Source: Candidatus Jordarchaeales archaeon (GTDB lineage Archaea > Asgardarchaeota > Jordiarchaeia > Jordiarchaeales > Freyrarchaeaceae). Taken from it: a stretch of DNA of 64,000 bases. The position numbers were made by a program, and so were the translations under genes. The notes beneath the pieces were generated by a model that was not told the DNA's origin, did no database searches, and was given only the letters and a program-made list of their open reading frames with translations. Below, piece after piece: positions 20,552-23,709 of the stretch (position 1 is its first letter; each line of letters begins with the position of its first letter). The DNA is taken from positions 62,001-126,000 of the forward strand of contig JAWAHN010000001.1 in NCBI GenBank assembly GCA_038889235.1, in the 5' to 3' direction.

Positions 20552-21808
20552 TTAATCCGCCGCTGAACTTCTGTCTCTTCTAATCCACCTCTTTTTTCTG
20601 ACTTCATCGGCTAGGCGGCGTGTCATTACTAGCGCTGCGACACCTGCAAGAAGGGACACTGGTCCCGTGGCTATGCCACTTAGCAGGTTAGGGAGGAAGT
20701 CTATTGAGGGCGCGGATATGCAAAGAGCCGTCGCCAGCGGCCCAACTGTGAGAGATAGTAGGACTGCGGCGTGAACCAGTGTGCTCGCCTTTGAAAAACC
20801 GTTCTCAGGTTTCTCCACGAAGCCGAGAGCTACGGGTATCGTTAGGTACGGTATGTAGACGCCGGCGATCTCTATTGTCACATCGAACAGGTATGTGATG
20901 CACGCCTTGTAGAGGTCTGCTGGGAACACTACTAGGACGGGAAGCGCCGTGTGGTAGAATGGTATTACAAGCGGTAGCCCGTAACTCACCCAGAGAGACC
21001 TCACAAGTGACTGTACTGGGTCAAGGAGGGTGATAGACGCAGATGCGAAGTCAAAGCCCGCGAAGGGTATGGGTACTCCCACCCATCTTCTGAAGCCGAA
21101 CTGTTGCGGGATGAGGGTGAAGCATAGGGCGTAGTAGGCTATGTAAAGGAAGTAGTGTGTCGTGAATATCCAGAAGCCTCTGCCATTCACGCGTGCGAGT
21201 ATTGCTAGCCCTATGGCGGTCATTATGAGTAAACCGCCCACTGAAACTGGGTTGAAAATCCATCTCAGGCTGTATGTTGAGTTCCACACCGGGATTCCTA
21301 GCAGTCCTATAGATGGGTGAAGCACGCCGGCTACGACTCCTATGCTCTCAACGCCTCTCTCGATTGCTAGGAAAAACGGTGTAAAGAGGAGCACTAGAAG
21401 TAAAGCTGCACGCTTCCTTAGCTTTAGAAACCTAGCGAAAATGTATCCTAGGAGGGCTGGTAGGGCTCCGTCCGTTATGCCTCGCATCACCGCCGGGAGC
21501 CATGTTGGAAGCCATACTCCCCCCATTAGCATTAGGGGGTTGACCGCCCTTATGCCTGACAGTGCAATGTATACCTCAACGGTCGTCCAGGCGACCGCCG
21601 ACATGAGGAAAACCCAGGCGGCCCCTAGTTCACCTTTCCGGAGTAGGTATGCGAGGAGGGCAAACGTTATGGCGATGACCACCAGCGAGCCCGTGTAGAA
21701 GTAACCGTTACTCGTCCTCACAATGTACATCTGGTTCGACAGAACTTGGTATGCTAAAAGGTATAAAGAGTCAGCCGACAAGCGACTCGACCCCCCAAGT
21801 ATTCTCAT
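20552..21808 (-). CDS. Membrane protein, paralogue A of a divergent pair
   Basis: About 418 residues with ten or so membrane helices. It is a clear paralogue of the protein encoded at 21961-23124: both have YIVRT-NGYFYTG near the N-terminus, LMGGV, RG-TDGALP, GVLHP, FNP-SVGGLL, RWVGVP-PF and FFDVTIE/LFDVTIE-AGVY-P. About half the residues match by eye. No known transporter or enzyme motif is seen. A TATA-like CTTAAATAAAG lies 25 bases before the ATG, so that ATG may be leaderless. A TTG nine codons in, after GGGGGG, is the alternative start. Confidence 0.8.
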   Translation of the reverse strand: MRILGGSSRLSADSLYLLAYQVLSNQMYIVRTSNGYFYTGSLVVIAITFALLAYLLRKGELGAAWVFLMSAVAWTTVEVYIALSGIRAVNPLMLMGGVWLPTWLPAVMRGITDGALPALLGYIFARFLKLRKRAALLLVLLFTPFFLAIERGVESIGVVAGVLHPSIGLLGIPVWNSTYSLRWIFNPVSVGGLLIMTAIGLAILARVNGRGFWIFTTHYFLYIAYYALCFTLIPQQFGFRRWVGVPIPFAGFDFASASITLLDPVQSLVRSLWVSYGLPLVIPFYHTALPVLVVFPADLYKACITYLFDVTIEIAGVYIPYLTIPVALGFVEKPENGFSKASTLVHAAVLLSLTVGPLATALCISAPSIDFLPNLLSGIATGPVSLLAGVAALVMTRRLADEVRKKRWIRRDRSSAAD

Positions 21809-21960: not shown

Positions 21961-23124
21961 ATGCTCGACCTCCTATCCAACTTGGTATACATTGTGAGGA
22001 CGGCAAACGGCTACTTCTATACTGGTGCAATAATAGTCGTGGCCTTGACTGTCCTCCTCTTGGTTCACGTGGTTAGGAAGGGCTACAGGGGGGCTTTATG
22101 GGTTTTCCTATTGTCCCTAGTGTCTTGGTCGCTCAGTGAGGTTTACTGGGTTGTTTCAGGGGGGCGGCTTGTAACCCCGGTCCAGCTAATGGGTGGGGTG
22201 GTTGTTCCCGAGCTTGTTCCAGCCCTACTCAGGGGTGTGACTGACGGAGCGCTGCCGGTGCTCTTAGCCTATCTATTCGCCGTGAACCTCCACGAGAAGA
22301 GGTTTAGGTGGGTTGCTGGAGTATTGGGTTTCATGGTCCTCTACCTCTTCATTGAGGGGTTCTTTGAAACGATAGGGGCGCGAATAGGCGTTCTTCACCC
22401 TGCCATGATATTGCTGGGGGTTCCTGTCTGGAATGCGACGTACAGCGTTAGATGGGTGTTTAACCCTTTGTCCGTTGGGGGCTTATTGTCCATGACCGTG
22501 CTTGGCTTGGCTGTGACTGCTTGGAGAAGGAGCTACTTGCTGTGGAAGGTTACCTCGCACTACTTCGTCTACCTCGTGATATACACGACGTACGCTTCAC
22601 TTATGGGGCAACTCGTCGGGTTTAAGCGGTGGGTTGGCGTTCCGCTGCCGTTCATAGGCTTCAACCCCGCTAGCATGGCAATCTCCACACTGGACCCACT
22701 TCAATCCTTGCTGAGGCTTGCATGGGTGAGCTACGGTTTGCCCACCATATTCTCCGTGTATCCACTAGCATTCCCCGTTCTACTCGTGGTTCCAGCCAAC
22801 ATTTATGGAGCCTTCTTAGGATACTTCTTCGACGTCACCATAGAGGTTGCAGGGGTGTACCTTCCGTTCATCGCCTTTCCCGTTATGCTGGGACTCGTCG
22901 AACTTCCAGGTAAAGAAGTTGCGAGGTCTGCAGCTCTGCCGCATACGGCCATCCTTTTATCCTTGACAGCTGTGCCACTCGTCCTGGGGGTCTGGTTATC
23001 TTCGAAGGCGCCGCACTTCCCATCATCTTTCGCTCAGGGAGCTATAGGCTTCCTGGCGTTTCTAGCAGTTGGGTTAGTAGTTCTAGTTGTTGTGAAAGCG
23101 CTGAGGGGGAAAAGCGTAGGTTGA
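21961..23124 (+). CDS. Membrane protein, paralogue B of a divergent pair
   Basis: A 387-residue polytopic membrane protein, paralogous to the protein at 20552-21808 and transcribed away from it across a 152-base gap. Its first residues align with residue 20 or so of paralogue A, so the shared family begins there. Membrane helices are evenly spaced and loops are short. Conserved aromatic and Gly residues cluster in the RWVGVP and FNP segments. The ATG follows GGAGGTGAGGGG. The probable selenoprotein gene starts 72 bases after it and could be in the same transcript. Confidence 0.8.
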   Translation: MLDLLSNLVYIVRTANGYFYTGAIIVVALTVLLLVHVVRKGYRGALWVFLLSLVSWSLSEVYWVVSGGRLVTPVQLMGGVVVPELVPALLRGVTDGALPVLLAYLFAVNLHEKRFRWVAGVLGFMVLYLFIEGFFETIGARIGVLHPAMILLGVPVWNATYSVRWVFNPLSVGGLLSMTVLGLAVTAWRRSYLLWKVTSHYFVYLVIYTTYASLMGQLVGFKRWVGVPLPFIGFNPASMAISTLDPLQSLLRLAWVSYGLPTIFSVYPLAFPVLLVVPANIYGAFLGYFFDVTIEVAGVYLPFIAFPVMLGLVELPGKEVARSAALPHTAILLSLTAVPLVLGVWLSSKAPHFPSSFAQGAIGFLAFLAVGLVVLVVVKALRGKSVG

Positions 23125-23196: not shown

Positions 23197-23535
23197 ATGA
23201 GGTTTGTACTAACCGAGAAGGCGCGGACCTATATTGCTTCAGAGGCAGAGAGGATATCCAGAGAGAACGGTACACCTGTCCTAGCTGTTTGGGCAGAGGA
23301 AGTCTACTCTTGAAGAGGAAGCAGGATTGAGGTGCGTGCAGGAGTGCATTACGAGAGAAAGGTTTTGGAGGCAGGTGGCTTCAAAGAAGAGGAGCCCGTT
23401 GACGGGTTGAAGGTCTACGTGCACGAGGAAGCATACAAGTACCTTCCAAGCGAGGTTCACTTGGACTACTTAGGTTACTGGAGAGGGCTGCGCGTCACGA
23501 ACTACGTCTCCGTGAGGCGCGATGGGACCTGTTAA
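23197..23535 (+). CDS. Probable HesB-like selenoprotein with in-frame TGA (Sec)
   Basis: A 112-codon frame from ATG 23197 to TAA 23533-23535, broken only by TGA at 23311-23313 (codon 39). The part before (MRFVLTEKARTYI...) and the part after (...VDGLKVYVHEEA, then VHLDYLGY and LRVTNY) read as one small HesB/IscA-related domain in a single frame. Families of this type include known selenoproteins with Sec at the HesB cysteine. The TGA sits between VYS and RGS, the expected position of that cysteine. A SECIS-like hairpin follows the stop by twelve bases. The alternatives are a Cys-to-stop mutation, a sequencing error, or a bicistron with GTG 23332. Selenocysteine genes are not in the window. 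Confidence 0.72.
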
Positions 23536-23546
23536 AGTTGTGTGAG

Positions 23547-23583
23547 ATGACCCGCCTCCATAAAGAGTGGCGGGGGCGGTGAT
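23547..23583 (+). promoter_or_regulatory. SECIS-like element, eukaryotic/Asgard layout
   Basis: ATGA at 23547-23550 and TGAT at 23580-23583 can form the tandem G.A quartet (T48.T83, G49.A82, A50.G81, C51.T80). Above it is an uninterrupted 8-bp helix, CCGCCTCC (23552-23559) with GGGGGCGG (23572-23579), containing one G.T pair. The 12-base apical loop has AAA at 23562-23564, on its 5' side. This is the order of eukaryotic SECIS elements and of those reported in Asgard archaea, not the usual archaeal GAA/A form. The lower helix I is weak here. Confidence 0.65.
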
Positions 23584-23585
23584 CT

Positions 23586-23602
23586 GGCGGTAATGCACCG
23601 CC
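23586..23602 (+). terminator. GC hairpin after the SECIS-like element
   Basis: GGCGGT pairs perfectly with ACCGCC around the loop AATGC, and a T-rich tract follows at 23606-23640. It may stop the selenoprotein transcript, or it may compete with SECIS helix I. Confidence 0.45.
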
Positions 23603-23709
23603 AACCTTCCTTTCATTCTTTGGGGTTTCTTGGATTTCCGTCCTTTGTTGTTTGAGCGGATGCCCCCTTTTTGCGAGATTTGATTGCACTGCATGTTTTT
23701 AGGTAAACG

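Follow-up and report, generated by a model that had tools for sequence, protein, structure and literature searches.

A predicted selenoprotein of the HesB/IscA fold in Asgard archaea and the RNA element behind its gene

Described HesB-like selenoproteins and the Jordarchaeales locus

IscA, one of the HesB/IscA proteins covered by the Pfam family PF01521 (Fe-S_biosyn), carries a C-terminal C-G-C motif. Among related selenoproteins, the HesB-like family modelled by TIGR01911 occurs in methanogens and bacteria; mutagenesis and 75Se labelling identified its M. maripaludis member (MMJJ_08070), which has no known function, as a selenoprotein (PMC11097638). Another family, the CC/Se motif proteins of Moorella type (NF041239), is characterized by the motif CxxU (PMC13188914). 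For Asgard archaea, a 2024 survey of 409 metagenome-assembled genomes (MAGs) reported seven selenoprotein families and selenocysteine (Sec) use in only four subdivisions, the other clades appearing to be without Sec (PMC11227280), and a 2026 review counted 11 archaeal selenoprotein families, with only Prx-like, AhpF-N and DsbA-like ones exclusive to Asgard archaea (PMC13188914). HesB-like selenoproteins of Asgard archaea appear in neither of these two sources. Sun et al. (2021) described a tRNA-Sec in a Jordarchaeia MAG and argued that Jordarchaeia decode Sec (PMC9723677).

The locus studied here lies in a 64,000-nucleotide stretch (hereafter the window; GCA_038889235.1, contig JAWAHN010000001.1, positions 62,001–126,000, forward strand) of a Candidatus Jordarchaeales genome of 2.14 Mb in 8 contigs, ~95% complete. 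The frame opens with ATG at 23197, ends with TAA at 23533–23535, has the TGA of codon 39 as its sole internal stop and translates as M-RFVLTEKARTYI...VYS-U-RGSRIEV...VDGLKVYV...VHLDYLGY...DGTC-stop. An earlier sequence-only reading had described a 112-codon frame interrupted at codon 39 only, with coordinates and translation that proved exact, and the motifs it had singled out on both sides of the TGA (TEKARTYI before; VDGLKVYV and VHLDYLGY after) are indeed there. It had also proposed that TGA39 is read as Sec. We agree with high confidence that the product of the gene is very probably a small Asgard selenoprotein with a HesB/IscA fold, because the UGA is conserved (19/19 homologous frames), coding constraint (dN/dS) acts on both sides of it, a SECIS follows the stop codon and the archaeal Sec pathway is complete, all of this being genomic evidence (Table 1). 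Also in the window is a divergent pair of membrane-protein paralogues of ~400 aa each (20552–21808 on the minus strand and 21961–23124 on the plus strand), for which a Pfam search gave no match.

Table 1 Features of the predicted selenoprotein locus (window coordinates) and of the Sec machinery of the host genome (contig C1 or locus L028 coordinates)
Feature	Position	Strand	Details
Predicted selenoprotein CDS, HesB/IscA fold	23197..23535	+	112 aa; UGA39 probably read as Sec; stop TAA
Predicted Sec codon (in-frame TGA, codon 39)	23311..23313	+	Invariant column among aligned members
Codon 112, C-terminal Cys (GxC-stop)	23530..23532	+	Alignment of members
SECIS	23547..23583	+	AUGA 23547-23550; UGAU 23580-23583; apical loop with AAA
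SECIS upper stem, 8 bp	23552-23559 with 23572-23579	+	
Second hairpin	23586..23602	+	GGCGG-UAAUGCA-CCGCC; loop motif GC[A/G]
Whole 3'UTR element	23535..23608	+	R1 match 79.4 bits; locus is an R1 training sequence
selB	L028 10532-11977 (C1 about 350.5-352.0 kb)		GTP_EFTU, domain 2 and aSelB_III domains
sepsecS	C1:352151-353269 by profile		E=1e-123
PSTK	C1:374773-375516		E=8e-57
selD	C1:553189-554101		Own UGA, HG-U-ACK
tRNA-Sec	C1 near 336032	-	Anticodon TCA (UCA)

Conservation of the UGA codon and relation to HesB/IscA

When 228 Asgard genomes were searched with a profile, 17 of them, from several families, yielded a total of 19 homologous frames. All 19 contain an in-frame TGA; Cys, Trp or any other sense codon occupies the Sec position in none of them, and TGG, TGC or TGT was never found in place of codon 39. 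In the aligned members the TGA forms one and the same invariant column, a property that few other columns share, and it recurs in independent assemblies of other species. The initial search, in 99 related genomes, had yielded single-TGA homologues in three species of the same genus (64–70% identity), four homologues from the same order (35–42% identity, one TGA each) and two of Borrarchaeum type (~30% identity, one TGA each). The sequence-only reading had pointed to relatives without both Cys and TGA as possible contrary evidence; the TGA is kept throughout. Between the host genome (G000) and its genus mates (together G000–G003), dN/dS was 0.11–0.14 before the TGA and 0.11–0.23 after it, ranges that omit one saturated comparison.

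These results bear on the possibility that a once-open frame was broken by the TGA, either in a pseudogene or through an assembly error. The data do come from MAGs, and two copies are visibly damaged: that of G002 (L003 near 1820–1840) has a frame-shifting indel close ahead of the C-terminal GxC that is probably due to misassembly, and the distant copy of G141 contains an additional in-frame TAA and may be a broken gene. Nevertheless, the presence of the same TGA in independent assemblies from several families across the phylum, the purifying selection on both sides of it and the conservation of the SECIS leave this explanation with a vanishingly small probability.

Other variation among the predicted selenoprotein genes concerns the C-terminal Cys112, which Jordarchaeia (other than G002, with its indel), the main Borrarchaeum-type copies, G142 and G143 have kept; it is missing from the Lokiarchaeia-type (f3) copies and from the second copies. 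In the second copies of the Borrarchaeum-type genomes G028 and G041, the TAG listed is where the frame itself terminates. Other Asgard families also have divergent HesB-fold frames, each with a single TGA (L095, L097 and L098, of Lokiarchaeia type, and L094, L096, L099, L100 and L101), among them the second paralogue in G028 and G041. AUGA-type SECIS-like structures come after most of the divergent frames (L094–L101), which are absent from the published list of Asgard selenoproteins. Viral contigs encoded no relative of the selenoprotein. The gene neighbourhood differs between the two Jordarchaeia families and, therefore, provides no functional hint.

The relation to HesB appears, on the evidence of relatives and a structural model, to be real but distant, at the level of the fold. 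The host protein alone had no Pfam match, the PF01521 profile found nothing in the host genome and sequence searches of the PDB returned chance matches only. Its best NCBIfam match was NF041239 (22.2 bits over residues 5–101, under the cut-off of 40). When ten members were examined, NF041239 matched seven weakly and PF01521 matched six, in all cases below cut-off (the best PF01521 score was 19.8 bits vs. a cut-off of 26.3), and these matches were mostly in co-linear register, residues 1–95 corresponding to positions 1–88 of the PF01521 profile. The homologue of G143 reads RG-U-SGAY and matches TIGR00049 over the GCSG region, which aligns Sec with the first Cys conserved in IscA. An AlphaFold2 model of the protein (pLDDT 90.1) found its best Foldseek match among 350,542 PDB chains in 2P2E, a putative Fe-S biosynthesis protein (probability 1.00, 109 columns, TM 0.56, E 0.015), the other matches looking like noise; this comparison points with moderate strength to a HesB/IscA fold. 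TIGR01911 had no match in the host genome at E<=0.01, and its matches in other Asgard genomes are stop-free proteins that do not include the locus. Given this mismatch, we treat the locus as a variant of the HesB/IscA fold in its own right, one that uses only Sec.

The qualifier 'HesB-like' used in the sequence-only reading stands for the fold match to 2P2E and the sub-cut-off PF01521 matches of the six members, and does not extend to membership in TIGR01911 or to a Pfam match of the query itself. Its proposal that the TGA occupies the site of the HesB Cys agrees with the G143 homologue, the correspondence between the two positions being drawn solely through distant profiles. One might also imagine a true selenoprotein unrelated to HesB/IscA with a merely convergent likeness, as the low profile scores, the missing Pfam and TIGR01911 matches and the Foldseek E value of 0.015 would allow. 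This is unlikely, since six of the ten members match PF01521 co-linearly, one homologue matches TIGR00049 over the GCSG region and the sole high-probability fold match is a Fe-S biosynthesis protein.

If the Asgard proteins are distant members of the HesB/IscA fold, as we favour, they resemble the TIGR01911 selenoproteins in being small and HesB/IscA-related with one Sec, and the methanogen ones in having an archaeal SECIS in the 3'UTR. However, the motif is UxGP in TIGR01911 and UxGS or UxSS here, the methanogen SECIS is of GAA_A type whereas here it is of the Asgard eSECIS type, and the Asgard members found here all use Sec. NF041239, although the best profile match of the query, differs by its CxxU motif, missing here, and by a bacterial SECIS located inside the coding region instead of the 3'UTR. 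Finally, PF01521 proteins, including 2P2E, are alike in predicted fold, with Sec at the GC[S/A]G turn, but most members here possess a lone GxC instead of the C-terminal C-G-C of IscA and score below the PF01521 threshold.

Selenocysteine pathway of the host genome

A search for the Sec machinery, which the sequence-only reading had recommended, returned the complete set: selB, PSTK, sepsecS, selD and tRNA-Sec. The selB gene is directly upstream of sepsecS, which overlaps its end. The tRNA-Sec gene was located by its anticodon/T-arm pattern and was missed both by ARAGORN (run on the window and the machinery loci) and by the Rfam tRNA-Sec model. It contains two inserts, one of 12 nt 3' of the anticodon loop and one in the T loop, and such inserts are probably the reason why both tools miss the tRNA-Sec of Jordarchaeia. 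With the two removed, it folds at −62.3 kcal/mol (z=−3.8) into a 9-bp acceptor, 7-bp D stem, 6-bp anticodon stem, 6-bp variable arm and 4-bp T stem. A weak Rfam tRNA-Sec match at C2:40794 was not accepted, the real gene being the one found by pattern. Two or three inserts interrupt each of the Jordarchaeia tRNA-Sec genes (L057, which is the host gene, L071 and L077), at sites 3' of the anticodon (host genome), in the T loop and probably in the D loop; a T-arm intron was already known in Loki tRNA-Sec (PMC9499178).

The selD gene is interrupted at one shared place, after DVY and before A-x-G-x-T, in each of the seven Jordarchaeia for which this region was recovered (L043 about 1461–1510 in the host gene; L038, L044, L039, L036, L037 and L040). 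The interrupting segment, of 30, 31 or 34 nt, contains a stop or shifts the frame, and can be folded into a short helix, a 3-nt bulge and a long helix with full compensation (GCAGCC/GGCUGC vs. GUAAAUC/GAUUUAC). From its sequence, the segment resembles a very short intron of the archaeal splicing-endonuclease kind lying within a protein gene. None of the other Asgard selD genes listed has this extra stop.

The SECIS and the adjacent second hairpin

Of most interest at the locus is the RNA element downstream of the gene, on which the sequence-only reading was silent. Right after the stop codon comes AUGA-(C)-CCGCCUCC-AUAAAGAGUGGC-GGGGGCGG-(U)-GAU, a eukaryote-type SECIS with an AUGA_GA core in the host genome and AUGA_AA in the sister family, a variation already reported for Asgard SECIS (PMC11227280). 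It conforms to the Asgard type I eSECIS (GA_[G/A]A core, upper stem of 7–15 bp, loop of 8–20 nt with adenines) and shares with those of Huang et al. (2024; PMC11227280) the AUGA_[G/A]A core, the 8-bp upper stem and the unpaired loop adenines; in the main text of that study, however, the models end at core, upper stem and apical loop, whereas a second hairpin follows here. No Rfam family matches the 3'UTR element. In eight Jordarchaeia sequences, 97.5% of the cells of the upper stem, the short lower stem and the second hairpin are paired and 14 cells are double changes, vs. 4.8 in shuffles (0/500 shuffles reach 14), the paired share falling to about 55% or less in slid registers. Independent folds of most relatives show an outer helix of 7–10 bp that closes both arms into a three-way junction. 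That of the host genome has only ~3 bp (GUU 23537–23539 with AAC 23603–23605), and the minimum-energy fold of the host element alone is modestly better than shuffles (z=−1.7).

The second hairpin, close after the SECIS core and with GCA or GCG in its loop, is found in the 3'UTRs of the hesB-like genes, vhuU and selD, a pattern common to three unrelated genes and to several lineages. Its loops vary (UAAUGCA, AAAAGCA, AAUGCA, AGCA, CGCAA, UGCGA, etc.) and its stem sequences are quite different. A script counted it in 44 of 48 Asgard selenoprotein 3'UTRs, where dinucleotide shuffling of the tested stretches predicts 6.6 (z=16); this z is overstated because related sequences are not independent, the motif was picked after viewing the data and the start of the tested stretch was hand-set in five of the 48.

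A covariance model (R1), built from eight Jordarchaeia 3'UTRs of the HesB-like gene only, was run on 59 genomes. Beyond the training loci, it found one extra match in each of G000–G003 (21.9–31.5 bits), directly behind a ~50-aa frame (MVELDPKLLNLIEVIMRAYD-C-U-LGC...) standing after a long frame. From the known DCULGC motif, we take the short frame to be vhuU, an established selenoprotein gene, whose 3'UTR is the second R1 match of the host genome; the long one can be read, from its sequence, as a putative hydrogenase large subunit. VhuU, the selenopeptide of the F420-non-reducing hydrogenase, is unrelated as a protein to the HesB-fold one and has the composite 3'UTR element in common with it. 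R1 also recognized the 3'UTRs of three more distant homologues, that of G143 at 26.8 bits and those of G196 and G152 weakly. The Borrarchaeum copies, which fit by inspection, were not found; a second-hairpin loop shorter by one base is the probable cause. A weak match in G015, lying across an open frame that belongs to a different gene, is probably due to chance.

This shared element also bears on whether UGA39 is read as an ordinary residue (Cys or Trp) by readthrough or reassignment, and not as Sec. The gene upstream ends with TGA (23122–23124), the homologues found never have TGG, TGC or TGT at the codon, the genome has a SECIS behind the gene and a complete Sec pathway, and the RNA element recurs behind vhuU and, as a two-hairpin layout, behind selD; all this makes such decoding very improbable. 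For Sec insertion, PSTK would phosphorylate Ser-tRNA-Sec, SepSecS would convert it with selenophosphate from SelD and SelB would carry the resulting Sec-tRNA-Sec to UGA39, the SECIS and the adjacent GC[A/G]-loop hairpin marking the mRNA for recoding. Sec39 would lie in the beta-turn that bears the first conserved Cys of IscA/HesB (cf. GC[S/A]G in IscA), with the C-terminal Cys as its possible partner, either in a metal/Fe-S ligand pair or in a selenenylsulfide redox pair.

Selenoproteins, HesB-like selenoproteins and the Asgard eSECIS are already known kinds. As far as the literature consulted shows, the HesB-fold selenoproteins predicted in Jordarchaeia, Borrarchaeum and, more distantly, other Asgard lineages are new, and they would add a selenoprotein family to those of Asgard archaea; they also provide independent support for Sec decoding in Jordarchaeia, in line with Sun et al. 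2021 (PMC9723677). The conserved second hairpin appears new as well, by comparison with the main text of Huang et al. 2024 (PMC11227280), in which we found no mention of it. We give even chances to the proposal that the Asgard SECIS is a two-part element, with a kink-turn hairpin followed by a GC[A/G]-loop hairpin inside a three-way junction, across unrelated genes and several Asgard lineages, the latter hairpin serving as an additional recognition site, for SelB perhaps or for a factor replacing SBP2, that eukaryotes have since lost or replaced. SBP2 is lacking in Asgard archaea, the closest relatives of eukaryotes; the second hairpin offers a concrete candidate site for recognition of their SECIS, assayable by the published Methanococcus reporter (PMC9622424) or by binding.
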